NCBI RefSeq assembly: GCF_943169825.2 | Contig: NZ_OW968402.1 | Coordinates: 1,178,001 to 1,242,000 of the forward strand | Direction: 5' to 3' | DNA: 64,000 nucleotides | Origin: Varibaculum prostatecancerukia | GTDB lineage: Bacteria > Actinomycetota > Actinomycetes > Actinomycetales > Actinomycetaceae | Shown: in pieces, positions 1,097 to 17,666 of the stretch | Numbering within the stretch: the first letter of the stretch is position 1 | Layout of the letters: every line of letters starts with the position of its first letter | Notes under the pieces: model-generated | Seen by the model: only the letters and a program-made list of their open reading frames with translations | The model's database searches: none | What the model was told of the DNA's origin: nothing | Translations under genes and position numbers: made by a program

Positions 1097-4063
1097 ATGA
1101 AATTCCAGTTTGATCCACGACAGCCCTATCAAACCAGTGCTATCGCTGCCGTCACTGACCTATTTGATGGGCAACCAGCCGATGCCGACCAGCTCCTGAC
1201 CGGCTTGCAGTACTTTCCCCCCCAGCAGTCACTGGACCTGCGGGACTTTGGTGGCCAGGGAGCTCTCGACGTCTTCGAGGAGACCGGTGCATATGGTAAC
1301 AACCTCCTCCTGGACGAGGACACGATCTTGGAAAATCTGCAGCGCGTGCAAGATAGGAATGGTCTTGAGATCAACGAGAGCCTGGTCGATGGTTTGCAGT
1401 TCGACATCGAGATGGAAACCGGCACCGGCAAGACCTACGTGTATCTGCGTACCGCGTTCGAGCTGGCGACGAAGTACAAGTTCAACAAGTACATCATCCT
1501 GGTACCGTCGGTGGCGATCCGGGAGGGCGTGAAGACCAGCATCGAGCTTATGAGTGAACATTTTAGCCACCTGTACCCGCAGATCAACATGGACTACAAC
1601 GTTTACTCCGGTGACCGTGCTGAGGACGTGCGGAATTTTGCAAGGGCCACGTCTTTGCAGTTCTTGGTGATGACGATTGACTCGATTAGGGGCGATAAGA
1701 ACACCCGCATCATTCACCAGCAGCGCGATAACCTCTCTGGCTTACGCCCGCTGGATTTCTTGCAGGCCACACGCCCGGTCGTGATTATGGATGAGCCGCA
1801 GAACATGGAGTCGTTGCTGGCTCAGTCGGCTGTGACTGATCTGAACCCTATGTGTACGTTGCGGTACTCGGCCACGCACCGCACGACCCGTAACATGGTC
1901 TACCGGCTTGATCCGCTCGATGCTCACCGACTCGAGCTGGTGAAGAAAATTGTGGTCTCCGATGCTCAGGAGCTTGGTAGTGCGGCTAAACCTTATGTCA
2001 AGCTGCTCGAGGTCAAGCGGGATCCAAGTTTTAAGGCCAGCTTGGAGTTGAACTGCCGTAAGAGGGATGGCTCTTATGCCAAGCGCAAGGTCAGCGCCTC
2101 TCAGGGTGATGACTTGGAGAGACTCTCCGGTGGGAACCCGGACTATGAAGGCAATTGGCGGATCAACGAGATCAGTGTGATGCCCGAACAGATCGAGTTG
2201 ACCAACTACGGCTACCTGCGCGTGGGGGAAGAAATCGGCGGTAACCAAGACGCTGTCTTCCAGGCGATGATTCGCGAAACCGTGCGTGAGCACATCCGCA
2301 AAGAAGAACAATTACACTCCCAAGGAATCAAGGTATTGTCGCTGTTCTTTATCGACAAGGTCGCCTCCTACCTCGGTGAAGGAATTAACAATCTTGACGC
2401 TAACGGTAAGTTTGCTACCTGGTTCGACACTATCTATCAGGAAGAACGGGATAAAATTTCTACCTCCCACGCATTCTTGCCGACAAATCCAGTTGAGGCA
2501 CGTTCTGGGTATTTCGCACAGATGAAACGCGGCAGGGGCAAGGCTGCGCAAGTGACGTTCAAGGACTCCTCGGGCAAGACCAAGGCTGACGATGACGCCT
2601 ATGAGTTGATCATGAAGGACAAGGCCCGCTTACTGAGTATGGATGAGCCGGCGCGGTTCATCTTCTCCCACTCCGCGCTACGGGAAGGCTGGGATAACCC
2701 CAACGTGTTCCAGATCTGCACCCTGCGAGACATGTCCACCGAGACTGAACGCCGCCAGACCATCGGGCGCGGGCTGCGCCTGCCGGTCAACCAAGCTGGC
2801 GAGCGCGTCAAAGACACCGGAACCGCACAGTTGACGGTGGTGGCGAACGAGTCATATGCGGCGTTCGCTTCCGCGTTGCAAGACGAGTACAAGCGCGCTG
2901 GTGTTTCGATCGGGTTTGTGCGTAAGACCGAGTTTGCTGAACTGCCCGTGGTTGAGGGCGGTAAGGAATCCCGGCTGGGGACGCGTCGTTCGACAGAGAT
3001 CTGGGAGGTTTTGCGCAAGCGCGGCTACATCAATGATGCAGGCGAGGTCCAAGGCACGTGGGTTCCTGACCAGCTTGGTTTCACCGTCGGTTTGTCGGAG
3101 CAGTACGCGGACTATGAGGCTGAGGTTATTGATCTAGTTGACCGGTGCAAGATCGAAGCACTCGTCAAGCCCAAGCGCAAGCGGAGAGTCCGGACACTGA
3201 ACAAGCAGGTGTATGCCACACCGGAGTTCGAGGAGTTTTGGGAGAAGATCACTTCTCGCACGACCTACCGGGTGAGTCTTGACCGTACGGATTTGGTACA
3301 GCGGTGCGTGGCCCGGATCAAGGAAGCCCCGCGTATTGATCCGATCCGTATCCAGGTCACCCGCACGGGTGTGGAGCTGACCCGGGGTGGCGCGAAGGGC
3401 TCGGTGCTTGGGTTTCGTGACGAGGTGCTCAAAGAGTCCTACCCGCTGCCAGACATCGTGCTACAGCTGCAAGAGTCCACGTCGCTGACCCGTAAAACGA
3501 TCATCGACATTCTGCTCGGATCGCAGCGGGTTGGTGAGTTCCTGGCCAACCCGAATGACTACATCAAGATGGTCACCGGGTGCATCGAAACCGAGCTCGC
3601 CCACACTCTCATCGACGGGATCCAGTATGAGCCCATCGGTGGCAGTATCTACGAACTGCGGGAACTGCAAGCGGACGGCCTCGAAGAGAAAGATCGTTTC
3701 ATTGATCAACTTTACAAGGTAAGCAATAAGGAAAAAACGGACTTCGACTATGTAGTCTTTGACTCTGCGGTGGAGAAACAGTTCGCCCAGTATTTGGACG
3801 GACGTGAAGACATCAAGCTGTTCATGAAGCTTCCCGACAAGTTCCGCATCCCCACCCCGGTCGGAGATTACAACCCGGACTGGGCGATCATCAAGCTCGA
3901 GGACGGCGTGGATCGACTCTATTTGGTGCGTGAGACAAAGTCCAACCAGGATCCGATGAAACGTCGTCCGAGCGAGAATGCAAAGATTACCGCTGCGATA
4001 AAACACTTCGAGGCTATCGGCGTGAACTATGCTGTCAGTTCTCCTGATCGTTGGGAAATATAG
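1097..4063 (+). CDS. res: Type III restriction enzyme Res subunit (helicase-nuclease)
   Basis: Restriction subunit of the type III system: an ATP-dependent superfamily 2 translocase that works with Mod to cut unmodified DNA. The 988 residues carry Walker A METGTGKT at 106-113, Walker B DEPQ at 232-235, motif III SATHRT near 258 and motif VI QTIGRGLRLPV near 555. A C-terminal PD-(D/E)XK-like nuclease segment has NPDWAI followed by VRETK around 925-950. An AGGAGGG sits 9 nt before the ATG. Length and motif order match intact family members, and I see no frameshift, so the enzyme is probably functional if the missing half of mod is intact. It is co-directional with mod and with the SNF2 gene that follows. 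Confidence 0.93.
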   Translation: MKFQFDPRQPYQTSAIAAVTDLFDGQPADADQLLTGLQYFPPQQSLDLRDFGGQGALDVFEETGAYGNNLLLDEDTILENLQRVQDRNGLEINESLVDGLQFDIEMETGTGKTYVYLRTAFELATKYKFNKYIILVPSVAIREGVKTSIELMSEHFSHLYPQINMDYNVYSGDRAEDVRNFARATSLQFLVMTIDSIRGDKNTRIIHQQRDNLSGLRPLDFLQATRPVVIMDEPQNMESLLAQSAVTDLNPMCTLRYSATHRTTRNMVYRLDPLDAHRLELVKKIVVSDAQELGSAAKPYVKLLEVKRDPSFKASLELNCRKRDGSYAKRKVSASQGDDLERLSGGNPDYEGNWRINEISVMPEQIELTNYGYLRVGEEIGGNQDAVFQAMIRETVREHIRKEEQLHSQGIKVLSLFFIDKVASYLGEGINNLDANGKFATWFDTIYQEERDKISTSHAFLPTNPVEARSGYFAQMKRGRGKAAQVTFKDSSGKTKADDDAYELIMKDKARLLSMDEPARFIFSHSALREGWDNPNVFQICTLRDMSTETERRQTIGRGLRLPVNQAGERVKDTGTAQLTVVANESYAAFASALQDEYKRAGVSIGFVRKTEFAELPVVEGGKESRLGTRRSTEIWEVLRKRGYINDAGEVQGTWVPDQLGFTVGLSEQYADYEAEVIDLVDRCKIEALVKPKRKRRVRTLNKQVYATPEFEEFWEKITSRTTYRVSLDRTDLVQRCVARIKEAPRIDPIRIQVTRTGVELTRGGAKGSVLGFRDEVLKESYPLPDIVLQLQESTSLTRKTIIDILLGSQRVGEFLANPNDYIKMVTGCIETELAHTLIDGIQYEPIGGSIYELRELQADGLEEKDRFIDQLYKVSNKEKTDFDYVVFDSAVEKQFAQYLDGREDIKLFMKLPDKFRIPTPVGDYNPDWAIIKLEDGVDRLYLVRETKSNQDPMKRRPSENAKITAAIKHFEAIGVNYAVSSPDRWEI

Positions 4064-4074
4064 GAGATGAATGC

Positions 4075-6927
4075 GTGTTTCAAAACTTAAACGCCTACCA
4101 GGCCAAGTTCTATGCCCACGAGCTTGATCGCTCCTATGCCTCTGACCATGTCGGGCGGTTAGCGGGTCTGCTATTTGATGCCCAGGTAGAACCCAAACCT
4201 CACCAGGTAGACGCGGCTCTGTTCGCATTGCAGACCCCCTTCACAAAAGGGGTAATTCTAGCGGACGAGGTAGGTTTAGGTAAGACGATCGAGGCCGGTA
4301 TTGTTATCAGCCAGTACTGGGCGCAACGTCAACGCCGCATCCTCATTATCGCGCCTTCATCGCTGCGTCAGCAGTGGCAACAAGAGCTGAGCGAAAAATT
4401 TGCGCTACCTGCCACATTGATGGACAGAACGAACATTGATGAACTCGTCAGTCCTGGTGGGTGTGATGAAATCCTGATTTGCTCGTATGAGTTCGCAAAC
4501 TCTCAAACTCAAAGGCTCATTCGTCCCTGGGATTTGGTGGTATGCGATGAGGCACATCGATTACGCTCTAATTGGACCGGACAGGCAAAAATCGCAGGGA
4601 ACGTTGCCCGCATCTGTCAGGCCGCAGGTAAAACAGTGATGCTGACCGCAACGCCGCTGCAAAACCGCCTGGAGGAGCTTTACGGCCTTGTCAGCGTGTT
4701 CTCTCCCGACTACTTCCACACCTTGGACTCCTTTAGGGAGCGGTACCTCAACCACCCAGAAGGCCCCGGGAATGATGATCTCGTGGATCGTGTTTCATGG
4801 ATTGCTAAACGTACACTGCGGAAGGACGCGGATAAGTACATTCGCTTCACTCAACGAATACCGCTCACGGTGGCATTTACGCCCAGCCCTGCAGAGATTC
4901 AACTTTATGATCGGATAAACGAGTACTTGCAGCGTCCGTTCTTACACGCGTTCGCTAAGTCCCAACGCCACCTATCGTCACTGATCCTGCGTAAACGACT
5001 TGGCTCCTCATCCTTCGCGGTTGCCACGACGTTAGAGAAGATCGCGAACCGCCTCGAAATAGAAATGACAGCTGGGCGTAGGCGTAACGATGCGGGCAAT
5101 CTCATGGACGACCCAGATTTAACCGATGAGATACGAGAAGCCAGCGAAGCCAATACCGACACCAGTCCCGCGCAAATAAACTTCACCGACCGGCAGGAGA
5201 TGCTCGACGAGGTCAACGAATTACGCGGATTCGCCGCGTTGGCGCGGTCGATCACGGTCAATCAGAAGGCCGTGAAACTCGTCGAAGCCCTCGATCAAGG
5301 CTTTGATAAACTGCGGGAAATCGGTGCGCCCGAGAAGGCGATCATCTTCACCGACTCGACCGTCACCCAGGACTACCTCGCCCGGTCGCTGGGCGAAGCA
5401 GGATGGGGTGAAGGACTGATCCTGTTCAACGGCAGTAACGACAGCCCCGAAGCCAAACGCATCTACAACCAGTGGCTAGAGGAAAACAAGGACGGTGACC
5501 TTGTTACCGGTATTGCTGCTGCTGATAGGCGTAAAGCTCTGGTGGATGAATTCCGTGACCGGGGTCGAATAATGATCGCCACCGAGGCTGCCGCTGAGGG
5601 TATCAACCTGCAATTTTGTTCCATGCTGGTCAACTACGATCTGCCCTGGAACCCGCAGCGTATCGAACAGCGTATTGGACGTGTGCACCGCTTCGGGCAG
5701 AAGCACAACGTCATCGTCGTAAACTTCTCCAACAAGGGGAACCGAGCCGAAGAACGTATTCTAGAGTTGCTCACCGAAAAGTTCCAACTATTTACATCGG
5801 TGTTCGGTGCGTCTGATGAGGTGCTGGGTCAGATTGAGGACGGACTGGACTTTGAGAAGATGATCGCTGGTATCTTGGACAACTGCAAGACCGCCGCTGA
5901 GATCGATGCTGCTTTTAAGGAACTCGAAGAGCGGTATTCAAAGCAGATTAACCGTGAGATGAAAAAAACGCGAGCTAAGGTGTTCGACAACCTTGACCCG
6001 AAAGTGCGTGACAAACTCAAGTATTACGATGCCCAGACCGGGGTAGTTCTCAACGCATTCCAGCGACTACTAATTCAGGTAACGCATCACGAGCTGGAAG
6101 GGAAGGCAACCTTCAATAGTTCGGGAACCCAGTTTACCCTCCATGAAGCCCCACTCGTAGGCATCCCCATTGGGGACTACTACTTTAAGTCAGAACCGCG
6201 CAAGGGTGCACACCAGTATCGGTATACCAGCGACCTGTGTGCGTGGGTAATCGAGCATGCGAAAAACCACGACACTCCACCGGCCCACCTCACGTTTCAG
6301 ATCAAAGGCTCCGAACGCGCCACGACGGTCGCTAAGCGGCTCAAGAAGAAGTCCGGGCGGTTGCGGATCGAGGAAGCTACCTTCACCATGAAGGCAGGCA
6401 AACAACAACTGCGCGAGTCCTACCTGCTGACCGCAGGATTTTTCGATGACGGCACCCCGATGGATCATGAGCAGATACGAGACCTTCTCGACCTGAACTG
6501 CACCGCCATCATCGCCCAGCCAGTCGACAGCACCGGGTTCGAGGATGACCTCAATGCTCAGCTTGCTGAGCTCGGGCAGGATGTGGAGGATCGCAACGCT
6601 GGGTTCTTCCTCCAGCAAGAAGAACTCATTGAAGCAGCACGCCTCGACCACAAAGCGAAGTTTGACGCAAAAATCCGCGAATACCAAGCCAAAGAGACCA
6701 CTGCGAAGAAGGCCGCCCGCAAGGCCGCCAGCGCCACCGAAGAGCTCAAGCTCAAGCAAGAAGCCAGACAGTGGCGACGCAAGATCGACGACACCGAAGA
6801 TGAATACCGCACCGAACGCAACCGGCTCCGCAACGAGTCCGAGGAATATCTCGACAACGCCCGCGACGCCCTCAACGCCACCGAGAACCGCCGCGAACTG
6901 TTCACCATCACCTGGGAGGTAAACTGA
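4075..6927 (+). CDS. SNF2-family helicase-like ATPase with charged coiled-coil tail
   Basis: 950-residue superfamily 2 ATPase. From the GTG at 4075 it shows Walker A DEVGLGKT at about 64-71, a DEAH box near 158-161, TATPLQN near 193, and the SNF2/RapA-type motif VI RIEQRIGRVHRFGQ near 531. Residues ~830-920 are rich in Lys, Glu, Arg and Ala and should form a long coiled coil. GTG 4075 is preferred over TTG 4051 because AGGAG lies 8 nt upstream of it and the longer version would overlap res. It directly follows mod and res, so it is probably an accessory of the restriction locus. DNA remodelling or translocation is inferred from family membership only. Class I DISARM also has a SNF2 protein (DrmD), but no other DISARM gene is present. 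Confidence 0.85.
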   Translation: MFQNLNAYQAKFYAHELDRSYASDHVGRLAGLLFDAQVEPKPHQVDAALFALQTPFTKGVILADEVGLGKTIEAGIVISQYWAQRQRRILIIAPSSLRQQWQQELSEKFALPATLMDRTNIDELVSPGGCDEILICSYEFANSQTQRLIRPWDLVVCDEAHRLRSNWTGQAKIAGNVARICQAAGKTVMLTATPLQNRLEELYGLVSVFSPDYFHTLDSFRERYLNHPEGPGNDDLVDRVSWIAKRTLRKDADKYIRFTQRIPLTVAFTPSPAEIQLYDRINEYLQRPFLHAFAKSQRHLSSLILRKRLGSSSFAVATTLEKIANRLEIEMTAGRRRNDAGNLMDDPDLTDEIREASEANTDTSPAQINFTDRQEMLDEVNELRGFAALARSITVNQKAVKLVEALDQGFDKLREIGAPEKAIIFTDSTVTQDYLARSLGEAGWGEGLILFNGSNDSPEAKRIYNQWLEENKDGDLVTGIAAADRRKALVDEFRDRGRIMIATEAAAEGINLQFCSMLVNYDLPWNPQRIEQRIGRVHRFGQKHNVIVVNFSNKGNRAEERILELLTEKFQLFTSVFGASDEVLGQIEDGLDFEKMIAGILDNCKTAAEIDAAFKELEERYSKQINREMKKTRAKVFDNLDPKVRDKLKYYDAQTGVVLNAFQRLLIQVTHHELEGKATFNSSGTQFTLHEAPLVGIPIGDYYFKSEPRKGAHQYRYTSDLCAWVIEHAKNHDTPPAHLTFQIKGSERATTVAKRLKKKSGRLRIEEATFTMKAGKQQLRESYLLTAGFFDDGTPMDHEQIRDLLDLNCTAIIAQPVDSTGFEDDLNAQLAELGQDVEDRNAGFFLQQEELIEAARLDHKAKFDAKIREYQAKETTAKKAARKAASATEELKLKQEARQWRRKIDDTEDEYRTERNRLRNESEEYLDNARDALNATENRRELFTITWEVN

Positions 6928-6933
6928 CGATAT

Positions 6934-7224
6934 GTGTCGTTGAGAAAGATGCGACTGATTGCTAGACCATACGTCTCACACATAAAGCTCTGCGACAACT
7001 CACGCGCCGCAATGCTCGCTGCGATCGAGGTCTACAACAAACCCCAGACAACATATCGAGAACAGCTAGTCACCGTCCTGGTCGTCAACGCCTGGGAACT
7101 GACCCTCAAGACTGCGCTCCGTAAGGCCAAGAAAAATATCTTCTACAAGAAGAAGCACGGAGAGGACTACAGGTCCTTATCACTGGAGCAGCGTATCGCA
7201 GACATGGACACAACCTACTGTTAG
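6934..7224 (+). pseudogene. DUF3644-like N-terminal fragment, truncated
   Basis: 96-residue frame starting 7 bp after the SNF2 gene, from a GTG. The segment with NSRAAMLAAIEVYNKP and VVNAWELTLKTAL resembles the N-terminus of DUF3644 proteins, a family often met in restriction and defence loci. Family members are about three times this length, and this frame stops abruptly after MDTTYC. A second short frame downstream (7358-7522) may be the rest of the gene. I infer that the last gene of the restriction operon has decayed. The family assignment rests on recognition of short conserved stretches. Confidence 0.55.
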
Positions 7225-7357
7225 AAAGAATCGCTTCGAAACGCTCCTCATCCGAAGTTTAACTAGCACCCTCACAACCGCGTTATAAGCTCAGATACCT
7301 CTTGTGGGCTGGATGTTAGCTACTAACGTATAGCGAGTCTGGCGCTTATCCGAGTTA

Positions 7358-7522
7358 GTGCCGCACGGAGGCTGCGATTTATTTGTTGCAAGCGTCTCAA
7401 CGCTTCTCCAGGATTATCAATCCATTCTTAAGAATGCTCTAAACCAGGAATCTGAGGAAAGTAAATTAGGTTTATTCCATTGCGCGATTAACGGGTGCTT
7501 GCTACCCGAGAACATGGACTGA
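7358..7522 (+). pseudogene. Possible remnant of the DUF3644-like gene's C-terminal half
   Basis: Short frame of 54 codons from a GTG, too short to stand as a convincing gene. It reads like protein: a stretch with FVASVSTLLQDYQSILKNAL has the helical Ala/Leu pattern expected in the middle of a DUF3644 protein. It lies about 135 bp after the truncated N-terminal piece, on the same strand. The bases between 7225 and 7357 contain stops in all forward frames and show nothing else I can identify. Confidence 0.25.
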
Positions 7523-7737
7523 ACGATAACTAGCGAAAATGGCACTGCCTGAAACTGCTACCTCAGTGGGCTCAAACCTAAGGCTTTGAAATCCCAACCA
7601 CCTACGCTGCCGCGCTAACCATTCGCAAGCCGCCATATCGACCGGTGTAAATCAGCGCATACTCTGATGCGCCAATAGAAGCCCCTAGGTAAAGAAGTAG
7701 GTAATAGCTACCGAGGCTGACATCCGTCAAGACCTCC

Positions 7738-7847
7738 GCCGGGCGCCCAAGAATAAAACAGCGCCTGTAAGTTAGCAGCAACCGCCAGGCGTCCTCATCC
7801 AGTTTCAAAGTTTCCGTATCCAAGGTGTAAACCGCGAAAAGCAATAG
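7738..7847 (-). pseudogene. Decayed copy of the 3' end of a PEBP (YbhB-like) gene
   Basis: About 105 bp (7741-7846) align with the 3' end of the intact PEBP gene at roughly 17163-17270, in the same orientation. I count about a dozen substitutions and two single-base indels over roughly 97 bp. The translated part FAVYTLDTETLKLDEDA matches FAVHALDTETLELDEDA of the intact protein, after which a missing base shifts the frame. Nothing of the 5' two thirds of the gene is present. An 80-codon frame (7602-7844) runs through it but is not a gene. The remainder, 7523-7737, holds no gene I can recognise. Confidence 0.75.
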
Positions 7848-8662: not shown

Positions 8663-8875
8663 TTATTTTTTGCTGCGGGTCTTTTTATTCTTTTCCCGAT
8701 TCCCGATTATCACAAAACAAGCAAAGCCTAAAGCCCAGATCGGAAGGGTGAACAACATGTTTCTAAGATAGTTAGCAGTAAACATCAAAAAGAAGTCCAA
8801 AATAGCCGAAATCGCCACCAGGATAATCCCCGCCCAAATCAAAAAATCATCGATAGTGTTTTTGCGCTTAGACAT
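8663..8875 (-). CDS. Small two-helix membrane protein, unknown function
   Basis: 70-residue protein with a short charged N-terminus (MSKRKNTIDD), two hydrophobic segments at about 11-33 and 40-60 separated by a short loop, and a very basic tail (NREKNKKTRSKK). This is a plausible inner-membrane protein with both ends inside. No family is recognised. The Shine-Dalgarno is weak (AAAG). It is divergent from the three-gene operon that starts at 9121 and lies tail-to-tail with the toxin gene. Confidence 0.5.
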   Translation of the reverse strand: MSKRKNTIDDFLIWAGIILVAISAILDFFLMFTANYLRNMLFTLPIWALGFACFVIIGNREKNKKTRSKK

Positions 8876-8905
8876 GGTCTTTAGTTTACCGGGTTTCGCG
8901 TATGC

Positions 8906-8934
8906 CCTCGGAAACAGTATTGAGTGTCTATAAT
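8906..8934 (+). promoter_or_regulatory. Candidate promoter of the 9121-15318 operon
   Basis: A perfect TATAAT sits at 8929-8934. No good -35 hexamer is visible at 16-18 bp upstream, which suggests an activator-dependent or otherwise atypical promoter. Transcripts starting here would have a leader of about 180 nt containing the 13-bp repeats at 9040-9091. Confidence 0.4.
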
Positions 8935-9039
8935 CGAATAGCGGGGCTGCACGCCGTCTACACCGGGAGTCAAAACCGGGTAAACCTGGCGGGCACGCAC
9001 AGGGGCCATTCCTGCCGGGATGACCACAGTAGAGGGTGA

Positions 9040-9091
9040 CAGCGACACAGAACAGCGACGCATAGCAGCGGAGCAGATCAGCGACGACGGC
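9040..9091 (+). repeat. Four tandem 13-bp repeats upstream of the three-gene operon
   Basis: Four consecutive 13-bp units read CAGCGACACAGAA, CAGCGACGCATAG, CAGCGGAGCAGAT and CAGCGACGACGGC. CAGCG is invariant and most other positions agree in at least three units. The array ends 29 bp before the ATG of the first gene. Regular spacing just over one helical turn suggests a multi-site protein-binding region or an RNA leader element; the function is unknown. Confidence 0.65.
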
Positions 9092-9120
9092 AAGTAATAA
9101 AAGGTAGAAAGAGGGACTGC

Positions 9121-12100
9121 ATGAAATCGCTTTCCGAGATGGTGGTAAACAATATTTTTGCCAACCAGGGGGTTCTCTCCCCGTCCTCCGAAACCGTTGC
9201 CGCCGTTAGGAAAGTAGTGAATTGCATCGTGGAATCCACTCCCCACCCCAAAAGCTTCTGGGAAACCGACTACTGGAAAAATTTCCTCCTCGGCGAAGAT
9301 GATTCATTCTGGACGCAAAAATCCGGAGAATCTTTCCAAGAAGTATTCACAAAAGTAGACAGTATCCGCAGTTACCAGGTTTATCCTCCAGCTAAATGGA
9401 CACGTAAGAACCATGACAATATACACCTGGTTAGATCAGAGAACCGTTATCTATTTTTTCGTGAAGGTAAGCGGCTGTACCTCCGCGACAATGTGGTTTT
9501 GATCCCTGCAGGTATTACCCCTATCGGGATTGAGCTAGGCATTGACTCGGAAGGGCGCTACGTCACCTGGGAGGGACGTCCTCTCGCCGGGAACTTAAAA
9601 AAACCTGCAGATACTGTTTTAGACCTGTTTCCCTACCCAGACGGAATACTGGTTTTTCCCACCACTGACGGATTTCGTGCCGCCCACCAAGACGAGGACG
9701 AAGTTACTGACAGTTTTCTCGATAACGTGACGGGACTGAATCCAAATTCCTTAGAATATTTTTCCTGCCGCCCAGCCCTGACTCCTCACCCTAACGGATA
9801 CGAGGCCACCCTGTCTTACTGGGACGATCGTTTCGATTTGTCAGAGGAAAAGGATCATCGTCCGGTACTGGTTTTAGCCCGTACCAAATCCGGGGATTCC
9901 TACTATGCCGTTGTCGCTCCTCGCAATAATCCCTACTTTAAAGACCGCTGCAAATGGCAGAAAGTTTCGGGTGGTAACACCTTCGTAGTCGAAGGTCAGT
10001 TCAAAGGTCAACCGGTGCGGATAACAGAAAAAGTTAACGGTGATTTAGAGATCAGCTATGGAGGGAGAGTAAAATCCCTAGGCAACGGACACTTAAGCGA
10101 AGTAAAGAGAATTGCCAATAACGACTTCCTCCAAACGCTTCGGGTCGTTATTTACGATTACCAGGGCGAGATCCGAACCCAGATTTTGGAAATCACTTTG
10201 AGCAGCGACGGCGCTATTTCAAAAAAACTCCTCCCTTGCCCGGGCAATGAACTTAAACCAGGCGGATTAGGCCAAGCAGGCAACCCCAAAAAACGCGATA
10301 AAAAAGCTGCTTCGCCGCTAGCAAAAGAGAAGGCTAAAACAATTGCTGATCGCCTTACTAACTGGCCACTCATGGGCAAGCAACTGTTACACCCCATTTT
10401 CGGAGCAGCCTCCCTAGCCGATAAGGATATCCCCACCGTGGCAAAGATCTGGGATCGCTGGAGTCAGTTTCAAGATGAGACCATCGAAAAAAAGGCAAAC
10501 CTGTTTATGGGGCTCCTGCCACTGAACGGAAACGATCTAGCTCGCACAACTATGCTGGTAGAGGAAGGCAGAACTAAATATAAATCCTATAGAATAACCG
10601 AGGGATCCACCCTAGGTGAAAAGCTGACTATCGATGCCTTGGATTCGTGGGACCTACCTATCGCGATGGCGCAAGAAAAATATCTAAACCGGTTACAAGA
10701 TCATTTTTCAACCGGACTTAAAGGCATCAGCGGCGTGCAGTTCATCTGGGTAACCCGAAGTGACCCCGAAAATGCTCGCTATTATTCAAGGGACTACGCC
10801 AAAAGTTGGGTAGTGGACACCAATCAGAACCTCTGGATGCTGCGCTACCTGGACACTCCAGAACTTAAAGCTAAAAATATAAAGTTTTTAAACGTCCTTG
10901 CACAAACCCTGCTAATGGAAGACGACAACCACTGCCGCTACTTCCTTGATCTAGGAACCGGGGATTTTTCCCCTCTCCCGCCTAATCGTAAATGGCTAGC
11001 CGGAGGAATCTACTGCGAGAACGGAGTCTACGTAACCCCGAAAGGCGATCCCTACCTGTTATCCGGGGAAACTATTGCGGTACCTAAAGGTCTAAAGTTC
11101 TGCCCCTCCTTCAGCGATGAGCTGCATATTGTGCCTGATGCCAGCGGAAAAATGCTGTTGCTAAAAGACGACCTCAGTGCCAGCTGCCTTGACCTGACAA
11201 TCGATATTGACTCCGCCACGGATTTTACTCCGGTTGCCAGAGTCGTAACCAGTAATAAACGCCCAGATAGACCCGATAGATTAGTAGATACTGTCCCCAA
11301 AGAGATGCATTGGGTCTATGTGCGAGATCGCTCGGGAAAAATCCGGTTTTATAACTATTCCTCTTCCAAGTTGGTAGCAGGTAAAGTTTTCAAGGATGAA
11401 TCGAGTACTGCCTCGCTGGTAGCCGTCAAACCCTACAAGAATTTTACCGTGGAATACTCTCGCACTAAAGGAGTATTGGCCAGGTTTGACACTAAGAAAA
11501 GAGCGTTAGTATTAGTTCCTCGGCACTGCCAACTAATAAAAATGGTAGTCACCTCCAAAATCCTGGAGGTTACCTATCAAAAAAATGACGGGAAAGCCTA
11601 CGATACCTCCATATCCCACAAGCAGGGCAGCTGTTCCTATCAGCGTAAGGAAGAGCCTCACAATATTTTCATGGATAAAGAGTATAACTGGGAAATAGAT
11701 TCTCATTGGACTCCGCGAATAAACCAACTAACTATGGATGATATTTCGCTCGGTCGCGATGAAGCGTTTTACCAGGGTTTTCATCGTTTAATCCTGGCTT
11801 CTCTAAACGCTGAAGACCGCGAAAACTTCTTAGATTTTCTAAAAGAATTGCGCGCCACCGAGAGTCCTGAAGCCCGCTCATGGTACAGATCTAATTGGGC
11901 AGAGGCACAAGCCCTAACCGCAGATAATCAACCCAGCCTGTGGGGTCACTATTACCGCTCGTGGACACAGTTCTACGGTTGTCTTTACCTCGCTAACTTT
12001 GATTTAGAAGCTGCCCTGGAAGCAATACGGAAAACGTTACAGCGGCAGGAAAGTATCGAAGACGAATATGGCATACCAAAATTATTTATTGATACCGCGA

Positions 12101-12147
12101 GAACAACTTTTTGGGGAATACCTGATGTTCCCGAAAGATGGATCTAA
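9121..12147 (+). CDS. Large protein of unknown function, first gene of the VWA/MoxR operon
   Basis: 1008 residues, not recognised. No signal peptide and no membrane segment is visible, so it should be cytoplasmic. Much of it (roughly 80-380 and 600-850) alternates short beta strands with Gly/Asp/Asn turns, such as YLFFREGKRLYLRDN and LWMLRYLDTPEL, as expected for beta-propeller-like or other all-beta repeats. A basic linker rich in Lys and Pro lies near 375-410. The last ~150 residues are helical and end with a Trp/Tyr-rich stretch (WGHYYRSWTQFYGCLY). AGAGGG precedes the ATG. It is followed 39 bp later by the VWA gene and shares its operon, so it is probably the partner or substrate adaptor of the MoxR-VWA pair; this is inference from context. 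Confidence 0.8.
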   Translation: MKSLSEMVVNNIFANQGVLSPSSETVAAVRKVVNCIVESTPHPKSFWETDYWKNFLLGEDDSFWTQKSGESFQEVFTKVDSIRSYQVYPPAKWTRKNHDNIHLVRSENRYLFFREGKRLYLRDNVVLIPAGITPIGIELGIDSEGRYVTWEGRPLAGNLKKPADTVLDLFPYPDGILVFPTTDGFRAAHQDEDEVTDSFLDNVTGLNPNSLEYFSCRPALTPHPNGYEATLSYWDDRFDLSEEKDHRPVLVLARTKSGDSYYAVVAPRNNPYFKDRCKWQKVSGGNTFVVEGQFKGQPVRITEKVNGDLEISYGGRVKSLGNGHLSEVKRIANNDFLQTLRVVIYDYQGEIRTQILEITLSSDGAISKKLLPCPGNELKPGGLGQAGNPKKRDKKAASPLAKEKAKTIADRLTNWPLMGKQLLHPIFGAASLADKDIPTVAKIWDRWSQFQDETIEKKANLFMGLLPLNGNDLARTTMLVEEGRTKYKSYRITEGSTLGEKLTIDALDSWDLPIAMAQEKYLNRLQDHFSTGLKGISGVQFIWVTRSDPENARYYSRDYAKSWVVDTNQNLWMLRYLDTPELKAKNIKFLNVLAQTLLMEDDNHCRYFLDLGTGDFSPLPPNRKWLAGGIYCENGVYVTPKGDPYLLSGETIAVPKGLKFCPSFSDELHIVPDASGKMLLLKDDLSASCLDLTIDIDSATDFTPVARVVTSNKRPDRPDRLVDTVPKEMHWVYVRDRSGKIRFYNYSSSKLVAGKVFKDESSTASLVAVKPYKNFTVEYSRTKGVLARFDTKKRALVLVPRHCQLIKMVVTSKILEVTYQKNDGKAYDTSISHKQGSCSYQRKEEPHNIFMDKEYNWEIDSHWTPRINQLTMDDISLGRDEAFYQGFHRLILASLNAEDRENFLDFLKELRATESPEARSWYRSNWAEAQALTADNQPSLWGHYYRSWTQFYGCLYLANFDLEAALEAIRKTLQRQESIEDEYGIPKLFIDTARTTFWGIPDVPERWI

Positions 12148-12186
12148 ATTGCGACCGATCGAAAAGAAGGAAACCCAGTAAGAAAT

Positions 12187-14067
12187 ATGCAACCCAGAGC
12201 ATTAACTGAAGAGCAGCGGATGCAATATATGGATGCTCTCTACTCTTGCATCAGCTATAGCAATGCCCCCTATTTAGCGCCACTATTGGTGCGGTTAAAA
12301 CCTTTAAGCGTACCCGGGTTGGGTACTTTAGCTTCCGATGCCCAGTGGCATGTGTTTATTGATTTCGATTTTCTGGAGTCTGAAAACATCGGCATGGAAG
12401 ATTTGGGCCGTCTGGTGCAACATGAAGCCTGGCACGCGGCCTATAGACACAATGAGCTCTCCGATCTCTATGACCCGCACTATGACCCGGGACTGGTCAC
12501 TATCGCCATGGATCTTGTTGTCAACCAGCATATTCCCCATATTGAGGAAGGGTGGACGGGGAAAACCGCAGTACTTCCCGGGAAAGGCGACTTCTCTGAC
12601 CTTCCTGAGGATTTAACCTGGCGAAAATACTTAAAGAAGATCGGCGAGTGGCATCCCCTCGTACCACTATCAGGCGACAAAAAAGAAGAGGAAGAAGAGG
12701 AAGAAAGCAAAAAGGGAAAGAAAAAAGACAAGGAAAAGAAACCGGGTTCACCGCAGGAAGAAAACCCGGATAAAGGAGACGATTCTGATCAGGATAGCGA
12801 TGCGGATTCCTCAAAAAAGGACAGTGATCAGGATAGCGATGGGGATTCTTCAAAAAAGGACGGCGATCAGGATAAAGACCAGTCCAATTCTAAAGAGAAA
12901 ACTGAAGAAGATGCATCCGGTGAAGGGGAAGATCAGGGCGACGATCAAGAAGGCGACTCGCCCTCCGAGGATCATTCCGGGACAGGAAAGGGCAAAGATC
13001 AAGAGGGGGAGGATTCCGAAACCGATCAGGCCTCCCCGCGTAAGGGCAAAAGCCATAAAAAGAATAGTGACGGCAAGGGTGAAAGTGCCTCCGCAGGAAA
13101 AGGAACTAGCAGCTCCAAACCCCAAAAACGCCCCAACGACCAGCCCAGTGAAGGCGGAAATGGTGGCAGCGGGTCCAGTGGCAACCAACCGATAACTTGC
13201 GGCAGATCCAAACTGACAAAAGAGCTTATTGAGGCTGCTCAAGAACTAGATCCCGGTTTTGAAGAAGGATCGATGGAACAAGTAATCGCCATTCGAGAAA
13301 TGGCGGAACAGATTACAAAATTTGCTGAGAGCAACTATCGCTGGGGACAATCCCACCGAGAACTGATCGGATGGGCAGAAGCTCAGTTAGCACCCTCGAT
13401 AGTTCCTTGGAAAAGACGCTTGTCACGGGTATTGGGCACCAAGATTGGCAATTCTCGCCCTCGTTTCGATTACACCTGGAGAAAACCCAGTAGGAGACAA
13501 AGCTGCGGAGTGGGAAAGCCCTATTATCCAGCCTTTAAGGGTGACACAAAATTTGAGCCCAATATCGTGATCGGGATTGACGTTTCCGGATCGATGTCTC
13601 GCGGGAACACCATCGACCACGTGGCCGGAGAAATTGACGGTATTTTGCGTTCGCACACGATTAGGAGTGCCTACGCCTTTTTTGTTGACGTGCAACCCGG
13701 AGAACTAAACGCAGTAGATAATACCGCTAAGGTGATTCAATCCGGGAAGACTTCGCTAGTTAGTTTCTCGCGCGTCAAAAACATTACACAGTATTTGTTT
13801 TCGGGTGGAGGCACCGATATGCGCAAAGCCTTAAAGGCGGCCTCCGAACTTCGCGGTAAGCTGCGCCCCAATATTTTTATATTGATTACCGACTGCGAAA
13901 CCCCCTGGTTGCAAGAAGAACCCGCGGGCTTGAAACGAGCAGAAACCATTCTTCTAGCGGTTAACACCAATATTTCCTCGATTACCTCCTCGCAGCAGGT
14001 TTGCCAACAATTCAATATTCCCGAATGGCTTAGTAAAGCTGTTATTCCGATACCCGCAGAATCATAA
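12187..14067 (+). CDS. Putative metallopeptidase-VWA protein (DUF2201-like)
   Basis: 626 residues in three parts. The N-terminal ~150 residues resemble the DUF2201 N-terminal putative metallopeptidase domain, with the zinc motif HEAWH at 79-83 and a following AMDLVVNQ. Residues ~165-330 are a low-complexity linker of Asp, Ser, Lys, Glu and Gly containing a 13-residue tandem repeat. The C-terminal half is a von Willebrand A domain with an intact metal-ion site: DVSGS near 467, a GGGTD Thr near 545 and a TDCE Asp near 580. VWA proteins encoded beside MoxR ATPases commonly act as their partners (RavA-ViaA, NorQ-NorD, CbbQ-CbbO). The substrate is unknown. MoxR follows after 60 bp. Confidence 0.85.
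   Translation: MQPRALTEEQRMQYMDALYSCISYSNAPYLAPLLVRLKPLSVPGLGTLASDAQWHVFIDFDFLESENIGMEDLGRLVQHEAWHAAYRHNELSDLYDPHYDPGLVTIAMDLVVNQHIPHIEEGWTGKTAVLPGKGDFSDLPEDLTWRKYLKKIGEWHPLVPLSGDKKEEEEEEESKKGKKKDKEKKPGSPQEENPDKGDDSDQDSDADSSKKDSDQDSDGDSSKKDGDQDKDQSNSKEKTEEDASGEGEDQGDDQEGDSPSEDHSGTGKGKDQEGEDSETDQASPRKGKSHKKNSDGKGESASAGKGTSSSKPQKRPNDQPSEGGNGGSGSSGNQPITCGRSKLTKELIEAAQELDPGFEEGSMEQVIAIREMAEQITKFAESNYRWGQSHRELIGWAEAQLAPSIVPWKRRLSRVLGTKIGNSRPRFDYTWRKPSRRQSCGVGKPYYPAFKGDTKFEPNIVIGIDVSGSMSRGNTIDHVAGEIDGILRSHTIRSAYAFFVDVQPGELNAVDNTAKVIQSGKTSLVSFSRVKNITQYLFSGGGTDMRKALKAASELRGKLRPNIFILITDCETPWLQEEPAGLKRAETILLAVNTNISSITSSQQVCQQFNIPEWLSKAVIPIPAES
12787..12879 (+). repeat. 39-bp in-frame tandem repeat in the VWA protein linker
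   Basis: Two full units of 39 bp (12787-12825 and 12826-12864) and a partial third encode DQDSDADSSKKDS, DQDSDGDSSKKDG and DQDKD. The units differ mostly at silent or conservative positions. Such repeats lengthen or shorten by slippage without breaking the frame. Confidence 0.85.
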
Positions 14068-14127
14068 AACCCGATTAGAAATCCAAATACCCCCAAAGAA
14101 ATAGATAAAAGAAAGAGTTGTTTTAGT

Positions 14128-15318
14128 ATGACCACCAATAAAAAGATGCTTTCCGCTCACTCCAGCGCTCTCGCTGAAAAAATTGCTATCACCTGCACGG
14201 CTGGGAACGTTCCTATTATTTGGGGGGATCCCGGGATCGGGAAAACCGCAATGGTCGAGCAGCTTGCAAAAGAGGTAGGCAGGGAACTGTTCGTGGTGAT
14301 TGGCTCCACTATGGAACCTACCGATATTGCAGGGCTACCGATACCGCAAGAGGGCGAGGACGGGGTTTTGGAAAGCCGCTTCACCGATCCTGACTTCTTG
14401 GCGTTCGTACGCAAACATAAAGGTAACGTGATTCTACTGTTTGACGAGTTCTTGTCCACTCCCCCGGTGGTACAAAACTCGCTATTGACTGCTATCCAGT
14501 CTCGGCGCCTCCCTGGAGGGCGTTTCCTACCAGATAACGTGTGGATGATTCTGGCCTCTAATCCCATGGAACAAACCCTTGACGGCACCGAGTTGTCCCT
14601 GCCGATGTCGAATCGCCTAGTCCACTTTTATGCAAATGTTGATCAGGAGTTTTTCTTACGTAACTTCCCGAGCAACTTCGGGAAAGGGTTTAAAAATCCA
14701 GCTGAGGCAGATATCCGGGCGATTATCGCTGGTTTCTTAACTCGCAACACTGCAATGATTCATGACATGCCCGAGGTGGACTCCGGATTTGTGGGCGGAT
14801 GGTGCTCACCGCGCTCTTGGGATAACCTAGCGCGTCAAGTTGCCATGTACGAGGACGGATTCAGAACCCCGGGAATCAAGATGGACTTCGTGGCCACAGT
14901 CGGCGAGGGCCCCTATATCGCGTTCTCCAGTTACTTCCTGAACCACAAGCTGCCGGCGCCCTCGGAAATCATCGCTGACCCAGAGCGTTCCGTTGCCTGG
15001 GGCAAACTGACCCCAGACCAGATTTACGCGATTATGGCGGGAGTATCTAGTTTTACTCCTGATAAACCGGAGAATCTCGGGAAAACCCTGTTAGCAATTA
15101 GTGACGTGTATGTGGCGGCTTCTAAGAGACTGAGCCCGCAAGGGATAGCTGTTTGCTGCGGACTCCTAGAATCCCTCTTCATGAAGACCCGGATCAAAAG
15201 GGATCTCACCGATGGTATCGGAGACGTTTTGGAGAAAGCTGAAATCCATGAACAAGTGCTGCAAAAACTTATGGGAACCCCGTTCCTTGACTATCTAAAG
15301 GAGAAAAAGCTCGCGTAA
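14128..15318 (+). CDS. MoxR-family AAA+ ATPase
   Basis: 396-residue AAA+ ATPase of the MoxR type. It has Walker A GDPGIGKT near 32-39, Walker B LLFDEF near 104-109, and a sensor 1 Asn in LASNPME near 148. The region TMEPTDIAGLP matches the MoxR-specific loop after beta 2. The C-terminal ~150 residues form the lid and an added helical domain. It should form a hexameric ring that remodels a target through its VWA partner encoded just upstream. It is the last gene of the operon: 29 bp later the PIN gene ends on the opposite strand. Confidence 0.9.
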   Translation: MTTNKKMLSAHSSALAEKIAITCTAGNVPIIWGDPGIGKTAMVEQLAKEVGRELFVVIGSTMEPTDIAGLPIPQEGEDGVLESRFTDPDFLAFVRKHKGNVILLFDEFLSTPPVVQNSLLTAIQSRRLPGGRFLPDNVWMILASNPMEQTLDGTELSLPMSNRLVHFYANVDQEFFLRNFPSNFGKGFKNPAEADIRAIIAGFLTRNTAMIHDMPEVDSGFVGGWCSPRSWDNLARQVAMYEDGFRTPGIKMDFVATVGEGPYIAFSSYFLNHKLPAPSEIIADPERSVAWGKLTPDQIYAIMAGVSSFTPDKPENLGKTLLAISDVYVAASKRLSPQGIAVCCGLLESLFMKTRIKRDLTDGIGDVLEKAEIHEQVLQKLMGTPFLDYLKEKKLA

Positions 15319-15346
15319 AGGGAAGTACGGAGTTAGGTAGTAAATA

Positions 15347-15868
15347 CTAACGAATGAATTCTCCTTTTTCCCAAAGTTGACGTCTATAATCAGCGTTTTC
15401 TTGTTGGGAAATGATGCCAGCTTTTTCCAAAAGTTCCAGGATTTTCTTGGTCCCGAAGGCAGCTGTTACCTCTGGCTGCTTCCTGGCAAGGGCAAGCGCG
15501 CGTCCATCATCACTTATAAATAGATTATGTTCATTGCGCGCAAAACTACCGACAATAATTGCTATGGTCTCCGCTTCTCCCAGATTCTCATTGTGATCGC
15601 AATGCCCGGGGGTATCCAAAACATTCTTATATGCTTGAGCTTGAAGCAGCTCAGCCGAATTAGGCCATTGAACCTTAGTCCAGAATTTTTTCACCTCTAG
15701 ATATAAATCATCGCGTTTCTTTTTTTTACAACAGAGGTGTTTAATTTCGTCCTTTACTGTGGGTGTCACGTAGAGGTTTTGCTTAAAAAGTTTTTTTACC
15801 TTAGGAAGCAGACCTACCAGGGCTAGGTTGAATAGGGTGCAGGTATCGTGGAAAAGTAATGTAGACAC
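15347..15868 (-). CDS. PIN-domain protein, putative nuclease
   Basis: 173 residues with the acidic pattern of PIN-domain ribonucleases: D8 in LFHDTCTL, E41 in VKDEI, E98/E100 in LGEAETIAI, and D120/D121 in FISDDGRALALA. These four acidic positions bind the metal ions in the family. A basic patch (KKKKRDD) near 48-54 may contact RNA. It is the third gene of a coupled operon behind an XRE regulator and an ImmA/IrrE peptidase; its GTG starts 4 bp after the peptidase stop. It is probably the effector of this module, by analogy with PIN toxins; this is inference. Confidence 0.82.
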   Translation of the reverse strand: MSTLLFHDTCTLFNLALVGLLPKVKKLFKQNLYVTPTVKDEIKHLCCKKKKRDDLYLEVKKFWTKVQWPNSAELLQAQAYKNVLDTPGHCDHNENLGEAETIAIIVGSFARNEHNLFISDDGRALALARKQPEVTAAFGTKKILELLEKAGIISQQENADYRRQLWEKGEFIR

Positions 15869-15872
15869 GATG

Positions 15873-16622
15873 TCACAGCTCCAGAAGTTTCAAGATCTCG
15901 TCAGCCGAGAGATCTTTGTCGGATTCTTCGGGAACTTCTTCCACCAGGTTGTCCGTAATTTGAATACCGAGAGTCCATTTGTAGGTATCGACGGGTACGT
16001 TTCCCTTAATTACCTGTTCATAGAGATTATTCAACAATTCGGTTGGGAATCTTTGCGCGCCCGACAAACTGGCGCGGCGCTGCAAGTCAGCCCACGTTAG
16101 TCCAATCTCTTCGAGATGTTCACCTAAAAAGTTTTGGGTATAAACCGTTTTTCCATCCTGATAAAGAAACTCTGGAACCGGCAACTTAAAGTCTTCTAGG
16201 CGAGTACTCAAGGCCGGAACTGATATCCCCCAATCCCAGATGAATCTGGCAAATTTGACCGGTTCGACTTTGCCCTCTACCAGACTGTGAATTTGCGCCT
16301 CCGGCATCAACAAGTCTGCAGCAAAGAGATTAGCCCCATCTTCCTGCTCTTTTATCTCATCATCATTCTTAATCATGGTGCCCTGTGCTATATGACCAAG
16401 TTCGTGGGCGATCCCAAAAACTTGCCTAAACCAGTTGTCTGTTCGGGGAGCCACAATCACCGGGCGAGAACCTAGACATAGACAGGAGCCATTAGCCTTC
16501 AAGCCGATCTGCACCACGTCAACATCCAGACGATCTTGAACTTGACTGGAGAAGTCAATATCGATTTTTCCCCCCAGCATCTCCAAGACTTCTGCCGGGG
16601 TTTTCCCTTCTATAGTGCTCAT
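15873..16622 (-). CDS. ImmA/IrrE-family metallopeptidase
   Basis: 249 residues of the COG2856 family of zinc peptidases that cleave or antagonise repressors in mobile elements and toxin-antitoxin-like modules. The zinc motif HELGH is at 73-77, and E94 in the EDGANLFAADLLMP segment is the third ligand. The C-terminal region (after ~110) is helical and should hold the sensor or partner-binding part. The ATG overlaps the upstream XRE gene by 4 bp and the PIN gene follows after 4 bp, so the three proteins are made together. The XRE protein is its likely substrate. Confidence 0.9.
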   Translation of the reverse strand: MSTIEGKTPAEVLEMLGGKIDIDFSSQVQDRLDVDVVQIGLKANGSCLCLGSRPVIVAPRTDNWFRQVFGIAHELGHIAQGTMIKNDDEIKEQEDGANLFAADLLMPEAQIHSLVEGKVEPVKFARFIWDWGISVPALSTRLEDFKLPVPEFLYQDGKTVYTQNFLGEHLEEIGLTWADLQRRASLSGAQRFPTELLNNLYEQVIKGNVPVDTYKWTLGIQITDNLVEEVPEESDKDLSADEILKLLEL

Positions 16623-16954
16623 CGATAAGCCTGCTTATAAACTAAGCCGATAGAACGAAAAACGTCCAGGTCATCCAGGTTCTGCCGGTATTCTCCGGTT
16701 TCCGGATCCCGATCGTGCCGGGCGGCAACGTCACTGGGTACCCAAAACTTGTCATCGCCAGTAATTAACCAATCTAGCGAAATATCTAAGATGGTTGCGA
16801 TTTCAGCAATCTCGCCGGCGCTAACCTTGCGTTGATCGTTAATCACTCGGCTAAGTTGCGACTCATCCCAACCCATTTTTTCCGCCAGCGTCTTTTGGCT
16901 GACTTTCTTGGCTTTGCAACTTTGGCGAATCCTTCGCCCAATGGTAGTTTCCAT
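16619..16954 (-). CDS. XRE-family helix-turn-helix regulator
   Basis: 111-residue regulator with an N-terminal Cro/cI-type helix-turn-helix (IGRRIRQSCKAKKVSQKTLA, then WDESQLSRVIN) at about 4-60, followed by a C-terminal region ending in YRQNLDDLDVFRSIGLVYKQ. The ATG at 16954 is preferred over the longer frame to 17002 because GGAGGTG lies about 6 nt before it. It should repress its own operon and may be destroyed by the ImmA/IrrE peptidase encoded next. Confidence 0.9.
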   Translation of the reverse strand: METTIGRRIRQSCKAKKVSQKTLAEKMGWDESQLSRVINDQRKVSAGEIAEIATILDISLDWLITGDDKFWVPSDVAARHDRDPETGEYRQNLDDLDVFRSIGLVYKQAYR

Positions 16955-17132
16955 TTTTGACACCTCCATTTGATTAACTCCAGCATAAACAAATATTTGC
17001 ACAATTGGAAGCTGAACTTGCGAAAATCACAATTTTACTCAAAACTTTTTTCGCGAGTAGACCATTTTTGCTGGTAGGAGGGTTTGCATGGATTTACCTT
17101 GCGGAGAAACGCCTGTTTTTTCTTTCAGCGTC
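16955..17132 (-). promoter_or_regulatory. Promoter/operator region of the XRE-ImmA-PIN operon
   Basis: Reading leftward, a TTCCAA / TATGCT pair with 17-bp spacing is a weak promoter candidate about 30-60 bp before the XRE start. A perfect 10-bp palindrome CAAATATTTG at 16990-16999 lies inside it and could be the repressor's operator. The right part of the interval holds the PEBP stop side and no gene. Confidence 0.4.
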
Positions 17133-17666
17133 CTACTTATTTTGGTAGGTGACCTCTAAAGTGGCGCGCGCCAAGGAATGAAACAGGGCCTGGAAGTTAG
17201 CAGCCGCCGCCGAGGCGTCCTCATCCAGTTCCAAAGTTTCCGTATCCAGGGCGTGAACCGCAAAAATATAGCGGTGGGGCCGATCCCCCTTCGGCGGAGC
17301 TGCCCCCATATAGGACCAGCCGCCCCCATCGTTGCGCAAATGGAAGGCCGGGCCTTCAAGCTCTAAGTCACTGCTGCCCGCACCGGTGGGCAAGGAAGTC
17401 ATCTCCGCCGAGATGTCGGTAATCAACCAGTGCCAGAATCCGGAAGGCGTAGGGGCATCGGGGTCAAAACAAGTCAGCAGGAAAGACTTGGTTTCTTTGG
17501 GGAAACCGCTCCACGAAAGTTGCGGAGATAGATTCTTCCCCGCCGCTATCTGCGCGGTGGGCATCTGACCCCCCGCAGTCAAATCCGTAGAAGTCAAAGT
17601 GAAAGTTGGAAGTTCTGGCAGCGCCTCGTAAGGGTCCAGAGCCAGCGGGCGAGAGTTAAGATCCAT
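17133..17666 (-). CDS. PEBP family protein (YbhB/YbcL, Raf kinase inhibitor-like)
   Basis: 177-residue phosphatidylethanolamine-binding-protein-like fold. It shows FDPDAPTPSGFWHW near 67-80 and the ligand-pocket segment GAAPPKGDRPHRYIFAVHAL near 122-141. No signal peptide is visible. GGAGGAATC precedes the ATG closely. The exact biological role of bacterial PEBP proteins is unclear. The last third of this gene is duplicated in decayed form at 7741-7846 on the same strand, flanking the accessory block between them. Confidence 0.92.
   Translation of the reverse strand: MDLNSRPLALDPYEALPELPTFTLTSTDLTAGGQMPTAQIAAGKNLSPQLSWSGFPKETKSFLLTCFDPDAPTPSGFWHWLITDISAEMTSLPTGAGSSDLELEGPAFHLRNDGGGWSYMGAAPPKGDRPHRYIFAVHALDTETLELDEDASAAAANFQALFHSLARATLEVTYQNK

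Follow-up and report, generated by a model that had tools for sequence, protein, structure and literature searches.

A three-gene block of Varibaculum prostatecancerukia as a candidate lineage-specific ternary MoxR-VWA machine

What does a gene for a large protein without known relatives do directly in front of a MoxR-VWA gene pair? The question is raised by a locus in a stretch of 64,000 nucleotides from Varibaculum prostatecancerukia (contig NZ_OW968402.1, positions 1,178,001 to 1,242,000 of the forward strand). This whole stretch is called the window below, and coordinates count from its first letter. Three open reading frames (ORFs) of 1008, 626 and 396 amino acids (aa) follow each other on the + strand, with intergenic gaps of 39 and 60 base pairs (bp), a co-directional arrangement that was verified as a preliminary description of this DNA had given it. 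Our tentative reading of the block is a ternary MoxR-VWA machine that is specific to this lineage and was probably gained by horizontal transfer. This reading is based on domains, motifs, family kinship, accessory status and the presence of third genes in some other MoxR-VWA lineages. The features are collected in Table 1.

Table 1. Features of the three-gene block and its surroundings (window coordinates; pLDDT, predicted local distance difference test)
Feature	Position	Strand	Basis
Orphan protein, 1008 aa, as third component (candidate sensor, adaptor or client)	9121..12147	+	ORF
Metallopeptidase-like (DUF2201_N) and VWA protein, 626 aa	12187..14067	+	family profiles, structure model
MoxR-type AAA+ ATPase, 396 aa	14128..15318	+	PF07728, PHROG 1297, profile against solved structures
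HEAWH, residues 79-83, predicted zinc site	12421..12435	+	conserved in relatives
Low-complexity acidic/Lys/Ser linker, about residues 165-340	12679..13206	+	pLDDT mostly <50
MIDAS DVSGS, residues 465-469; completed by T543, D569	13579..13593	+	motif/alignment
Walker A GDPGIGKT	14224..14247	+	motif
Walker B LLFDE	14434..14448	+	motif
Accessory segment, 8205 bp; 62 bp instead in sister species G461	8915..17119	.	flank comparison
Sub-segment carrying the three genes; sister species G479 lacks it; right edge approximate	8764..15346	.	flank comparison
Copy of PEBP-gene piece, ~86% identical, marks rearranged site	7740..7840	-	self-comparison

The 626-aa protein combines a DUF2201_N domain, a disordered linker and a VWA domain with a full MIDAS (metal ion-dependent adhesion site), in this order. 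PF13203 DUF2201_N, described as a “putative metallopeptidase domain”, matches at an expectation value (E) of 3.2e-12 (47.1 bits, cut-off 23.2), and the N-terminal 178 aa alone still match it at E 3.9e-7. The VWA-like profile of the same group, PF09967, stays under its cut-off (20 vs 26.4 bits). The match to PHROG 1314 spans residues 7-575 (E 1.6e-19); the “HNH endonuclease” label of this family is at odds with the Pfam domains found and was set aside. All motifs previously named for this protein are present and intact, with GGGTD at residues 540-544 and TDCE at 568-571 in addition to the two in Table 1, and the long acidic/Lys linker is likewise borne out.

In a profile search the HE..H motif was found in 98 of 109 relatives. 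The remaining 11 comprise ten with H[QH]xxH, where both histidines are kept and the glutamate is lost, and one truncated sequence. From the 109 loci with a match, 12 were dropped by a length and motif filter, and 19 of the resulting 97 were further omitted by hand, their identity unmeasured; L152 was omitted for its insert. The final alignment (A5) holds 78 relatives plus the window protein. Since its rows were picked for HE..H and D.S.S, the conservation of these two motifs in it is by construction, while that of H88, D109, N113, T543 and D569 is independent of row selection. H88, D109 and N113 are conserved in 79/79 rows. E111 is present in 76/79, and the window protein has valine here. By analogy with zincins we take D109 to be the candidate third zinc ligand. 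The zinc site looks functional, and because the catalytic glutamate is missing in some relatives, the HExxH site may bind rather than cleave in part of the family.

The structure model of this protein, built from 79 sequences, has a mean pLDDT of 70, with both domains mostly at 70-95. Residues 456-626 form a VWA fold that reaches to the C-terminus (best Z 11.0, e.g. 9p97_A, root-mean-square deviation 2.9, 144 aligned). Metallopeptidases are absent among the matches listed in the structure comparisons, where VWA domains fill the lists and regions outside 422-626 are barely tested. The sole hint of a peptidase relative is the M48 peptidase 3c37_A, at E 0.0088 across the HExxH stretch. Two side observations concern this gene family. 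Within the linker, a 39-bp unit is tandemly duplicated at 12786-12863 with copies 92% identical, which suggests linker growth by slippage. A viral DUF2201-VWA gene (L152:7477-10035) carries an intein-like LAGLIDADG insert within a conserved NxxxDxEIND stretch (LAGLIDADG_3, E 7.7e-11; Intein_splicing, E 1.6e-5, under cut-off).

As for the 396-aa protein, it matches PF07728 AAA_5 (E 6.2e-9) and, over residues 7-310, PHROG 1297 (E 4.4e-46). Its Walker A and Walker B motifs are intact, as first described, and the ordinary GxxGxGK[ST] P-loop is seen in 18/18 rows of the ATPase alignment A1. A MoxR profile compared with solved structures finds midasin (E 5.9e-25), RavA (9.9e-5) and NorQ (1.5e-4). 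The bpMoxR profile PF20030 remains under its cut-off (21 vs 27 bits). Domains and neighbourhood place the second and third genes in the DUF2201 metallopeptidase-VWA plus MoxR family, with a putative peptidase activity. It is very likely that they encode a working machine of the MoxR-peptidase-VWA type.

This pair has kin among viruses. Comparison of the VWA-protein model with predicted viral structures gave 42 matches at E <= 0.001, several of them spanning at least 600 alignment columns, with names that include the phage “VWA-like domain-containing protein” and “Metallopeptidase domain protein”. TM-scores of these matches, normalised by query length, are modest, with 0.31 for the top-ranked one, and we attribute this to the linker. 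MoxR relatives occur in 317/50,697 phage records and 89/72,556 plasmid records (E <= 1e-5). The pair could be a relic of a phage or plasmid, or its cargo: a module for the maturation of a virion or element left in the chromosome, with the upstream gene unrelated. The phage families matching both proteins across most of their length would fit, as would those viral structures and phage records and a prophage found at the same site in a sister species. Set against this, no virion, integrase or replication family was matched by Pfam among the ten ORFs scanned at 6.9-17.7 kb, the motifs of the pair are intact, and the nearest row in a MoxR tree, which is viral, is just 33% identical. We regard such an origin as improbable.

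The 1008-aa protein is of a different nature. It has no relative in Pfam, NCBIfam, PADLOC, PHROGs or the sequences of the Protein Data Bank (PDB), which bears out the earlier statement that it matches no familiar family. The best PHROGs line (E 0.2, PHROG 21702) and weak Pfam lines on parts of the protein (DUF1408, E 0.18; HBS1_N, E 0.22) were taken as chance. In plasmids and phages, tblastn at an E limit of 5 returned Listeria matches only, at E 3-5 and covering 11-12% of the query. Scans with exact 8-residue peptides, an insensitive method, gave six stretches with no relative among them in genome contigs and nothing in viral contigs. The gene is single copy in its own genome. Among sampled genomes, one carried a relative in each draw, which overlap: 1/394 for the class (E <= 0.001), 1/151 for the family and 1/248 for the order (both E <= 0.01). 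The single positive is the window's own genome each time. The protein is thus an orphan at the reach of the searches used, and not proven unique.

Its sequence gives few features. The highest 19-residue Kyte-Doolittle mean is 1.44 and no membrane-type hydrophobic segment was found on this scale, so the “cytoplasmic” of the preliminary description is plausible. A simple motif scan found no Walker A, HExxH, GxSxG or PD-ExK, and two D.S.S matches (684, 828) were taken as chance. No internal repeats were detected, the best window scoring 62 where shuffled sequences reach up to 67. By eye, some stretches resemble propeller blades, an unconfirmed impression. The single-sequence AlphaFold2 model (predicted template modelling score, pTM, 0.23) was unusable and no structure was drawn from it. 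As to third components of the ternary conflict systems discussed at the end, beta-propeller or TPR domains (Kaur subsystem 4) gave no Pfam match and no repeat above shuffled sequences, the fold not having been obtained, and VMAP-C or inactive STAND domains (Kaur subsystems 1-2) gave no Pfam, NCBIfam or PADLOC match, a weak absence for domains that diverge fast.

We then consider other MoxR-VWA pairs. Relatives of the MoxR protein are present in 56/394 genomes of the class at E <= 1e-15, own genome included, and pairs occur in phages, on plasmids and on actinobacterial chromosomes. From a scan of genome contigs with the MoxR alignment, the best 80 of 344 loci were taken. The pair survey covers 139 loci by six-frame profile matches, a pair being counted on the same strand with midpoints at most 4.5 kb apart; 135 have the pair and 4 do not. 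Gene calling by longest ORF or by codon-position G+C dropped real genes in G+C-rich loci (the latter found the pair in 31/104). Many surveyed loci are closely related, and in at least one case (L048 and L071) two loci are the same DNA, so the counts are descriptive rather than independent events. Loci from genomes of the class match named actinobacteria closely: L048 is 100% identical over 3108 bases to L071, from a Frankiaceae MAG, and L037 is 93% identical over 2481 bases to L057, from a Streptomyces. The order MoxR-VWA is found in 131 of the 135 pairs, and VWA-MoxR, the order of the window, in 4.

Two families of third genes accompany these pairs, counted when within 3 kb on the strand of the pair. 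Family c2 (about 470 aa) lies near 85/135 pairs, and c5 (about 400 aa) near 4/135; their profiles were built from members of the surveyed loci, and L210-L222 stand outside the 135. An example of c2 is L075:7312-8721, uncharacterised, and the one member scanned has no Pfam match. In four annotated plasmids, the c5-type gene has a second AAA gene after it. Neither family is distant kin of the 1008-aa protein (hhalign probability 0.1% for c2 and 0.3% for c5), and a 332-aa neighbour of the L201 pair was likewise rejected (best E 7.5). Against the loci collected, the large protein matched the window's own locus alone. The check proposed earlier, whether this third gene recurs beside DUF2201-like plus MoxR pairs, thus turned up no second case. 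The genome that holds L201 (G399, of the same family) has a VWA-MoxR pair in the order of the window, but the large gene is missing there and the two proteins are just 31% and 27% identical.

A further candidate third gene was noticed in two related genomes (L205:5749-7596 and L215:5937-7796), where a gene of 615-619 aa directly precedes the DUF2201-VWA gene. By impression, its product has one probable membrane segment and a tail that looks beta-stranded. In L205 there is a DNA polymerase III alpha gene nearby.

For the MoxR tree, 80 loci were offered; 2 lacked MoxR and 7 were dropped as shorter than 220 aa, and the remaining 71 plus the window gave 72 rows. Two supported groups stand out. One unites the 6 c5 rows (100/89); the other takes in 10 of the 13 c2 rows (100/99), and the remaining 3 c2 rows fall elsewhere. 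At least two third genes thus accompany particular MoxR lineages. The window MoxR is outside both groups. Its long branch (1.91) arises from a large open fork without a supported position, and the tree carries a long-branch warning for its row together with L201. This lineage may have its own third gene, and the orphan is likely to be the partner of the pair.

Such third genes suit clients as well as sensors. The pair could be a chaperone for the maturation or trimming of the 1008-aa protein, in the manner of NorQD with the nitric oxide reductase cNOR; the function would then lie with the large protein, and immune sensing would play no part. The large gene stands first in a co-directional block, and NorQD does serve a dedicated client (PMC9976466; this and the other papers below are cited from excerpts). 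For this reading the task of the large protein offers no clue, with no enzyme motif in the short scan and no family. We consider it somewhat unlikely.

The genomic context shows that the block is accessory and lies in a horizontally variable region. The host genome has 2.21 Mb in one contig. Measured per kb, G+C lies at 0.47-0.51 from 9 to 15 kb, at 0.48-0.49 over 7-9 kb and at 0.45-0.48 over 15-17 kb, and is mostly 0.52-0.57 outside. At third codon positions, the three genes have a G+C of 0.50, 0.50 and 0.59; 6 of 7 other genes measured have 0.60-0.70, the exception being the ImmA-like gene (0.51). The VWA protein and the 1008-aa protein have no match in the 5 sister species examined, all of which have the flanking PEBP gene (17133-17666). 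In G461, similarity of the left flank stops at 8914 and the right flank resumes at 17120. In G479, similarity of the left flank extends to 8763, with the PIN-like gene only a few bases further on, its 3' end nearest; this species retains the PIN-like, ImmA-like and XRE genes without the three genes. Low G+C and empty sites in sister species both count for accessory status.

Accessory status also bears on a role in general protein quality control, or as a stress chaperone, without any conflict. House roles are suggested by RavA-ViaA and by the common chromosomal pairs of actinobacteria, including the MoxR relatives in the class genomes given above. A core gene would not be expected to be missing as the VWA and large proteins are in the sister species, and we judge this role to be quite improbable.

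The site is an insertion hotspot that hosts defence genes such as restriction genes, and also toxin-antitoxin genes, adhesins and a prophage. Genes for surface proteins stand at the same site in two sister species (L173:3428-7129 in G496, 1233 aa; L174:3039-7283 in G437, 1414 aa), the first with Rib, G5 and adhesin domains by Pfam and the second judged by eye. The G437 site also has type I restriction genes, the G404 site has a prophage with recombinase genes, and in G479 an ADP-ribosylglycohydrolase-like gene is found some kb off. A piece of about 100 bp of the PEBP gene is repeated 9.4 kb apart in direct orientation (7740-7840 and 17165-17266), and similar pieces occur in G496 on the same contig and in G437 on another contig, as if the end of the PEBP gene were a recurrent insertion point.

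Around the block, scans with Pfam, NCBIfam and PADLOC confirmed the neighbours reported before as type III restriction, RelB/YafQ, XRE and ImmA-like genes. This is not so for the “PIN” gene at 15347-15868, which Pfam does not recognise (best E 0.041, to an unrelated family) and NCBIfam does not match; its product has only a weak similarity to PADLOC PDC-S70 (E 3.6e-5). The XRE gene also matches phage repressor families, as is usual for XRE genes. Leftward in the window lies the type III restriction block, with part of mod at 20-1081 and res at 1097-4063. A DrmD-like SNF2 helicase gene (4051-6927) overlaps res and matches NCBIfam DrmD_b at E 5.1e-170, yet under the cut-off, and a short DUF3644 piece follows at 6934-7224. 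The sister stretches fetched have no match to window 1-7580, so this restriction and helicase block seems variable too.

Together, these data are consistent with the following mechanism for a ternary machine. The 396-aa MoxR protein would form a hexameric ring, on which the VWA domain of the 626-aa protein would dock. The metal of the MIDAS could grip an acidic site on a target, and ATP-driven movement would remodel it. The zincin-like N-terminal domain, on its long flexible linker, might then come within range of the remodelled target, to hold it or, as an active peptidase, to clip it. The 1008-aa protein would be a dedicated partner: it could be a sensor or adaptor, delivering the target or licensing it, or it could be the client. 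Conflict with mobile elements is plausible as the most likely biological role, and we propose a conflict role for the block only tentatively. The full form of this idea is a new ternary conflict system in which the orphan sensor licenses the MoxR ring and an invader protein, or the sensor, is presented to the VWA-borne zinc peptidase; this we hold to be unlikely. If true, the host would have made an immune protease out of a phage-type metallopeptidase-VWA/MoxR pair, and lineages would have exchanged one third gene for another.

Several points weigh against the ternary machine and its conflict role. The 1008-aa protein has a single occurrence in the searches, which gives no recurrence to link it with the pair, and its predicted fold is unusable (pLDDT 32.9). 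At least 46/135 pairs have neither c2 nor c5 nearby, and a third gene is therefore not universal. Valine in place of E111, together with the ten relatives lacking the glutamate, means that peptidase activity is not assured. The PIN/ImmA/XRE and RelB/YafQ genes are separable modules, each found in a sister species without the three genes, and with adhesins and a prophage the hotspot does not house defence alone. For the phage pair, virion assembly with peptide processing has been proposed (PMC7824862).

Of the preliminary description, the MoxR/VWA remodelling pair, the putative zinc-peptidase domain, the large protein without a family and the horizontally variable region stand. Its defence or quality-control role and the large protein as sensor or substrate binder remain proposals; the neighbours are separable and the hotspot is mixed. 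The large protein was assigned to no known metabolic or structural family, and the related pairs are not confined to core contexts.

Bacteria, phages and plasmids widely carry MoxR-VWA pairs, but for the metallopeptidase-VWA branch the excerpts cited here offer only a proposed function. In the window the three genes form a compact unit, and sister species provide empty sites for comparison. With an orphan protein here and dissimilar third genes beside other pairs, the role of the third gene is directly open to experiment. If the orphan gates the peptidase, the block would mirror a phage machine on the side of the host.

We finally compare the block with known systems. RavA-ViaA and CbbQ-CbbO each join a MoxR AAA+ ATPase with a MIDAS-bearing VWA partner. 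To our knowledge, the N-terminal domains of NorD, ViaA and CbbO are not DUF2201_N metallopeptidases. The clients of NorQ-NorD, RavA-ViaA and CbbQ-CbbO are respiratory or carbon-fixing enzymes. NorQ-NorD resembles the block in its MoxR AAA+ protein and MIDAS-bearing VWA partner, and NorD also has an N-terminal domain and a disordered linker (PMC9976466). In that system, data support a NorQ ring with the VWA of NorD in the pore, the MIDAS residues of NorD are required for the target and dispensable for NorQ binding, and the client is a dedicated enzyme, cNOR (PMC9976466).

In described ternary MoxR-vWA defence systems, the vWA protein bears a peptidase and the third component is a proposed sensor (PMC12839542; PMC7159879). 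Ternary conflict systems of this kind involve VMAP, iSTAND, FtsH or beta-propeller components (PMC7159879). The block shares their layout of MoxR, vWA and a third component. It differs in that no VMAP, iSTAND or bpX family was matched, in a vWA protein that ends without an effector or propeller at its C-terminus, and in an ordinary P-loop (GDPGIGKT) instead of the GXXXTAKS variant often found with bpMoxR. As its vWA protein lacks a C-terminal propeller, its bpMoxR match is under cut-off and its P-loop is ordinary, the block is outside the beta-propeller ternary subsystem (Kaur subsystem 4) as the cited excerpts define it. Within the open-licence literature, as far as the excerpts cover it, no description of this three-gene arrangement was found.

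Closer in family are the c2-MoxR-VWA and MoxR-VWA-c5 loci of actinobacteria, several on plasmids, with the same MoxR and DUF2201-VWA families and a third gene. The block differs in its order, VWA first, and in a 1008-aa protein unrelated to those third genes. A metallopeptidase-vWA and MoxR pair has already been described in group 2.2 jumbo phages (PMC7824862). As in the window, an N-terminal metallopeptidase is fused to vWA and the MoxR ATPase is adjacent; this kinship runs via PHROG 1314, PHROG 1297 and Pfam, and not via the sequences named in that paper. Unlike the jumbo-phage pair, as the excerpts present it, the block of the window is chromosomal, with VWA before MoxR and the 1008-aa gene in front.

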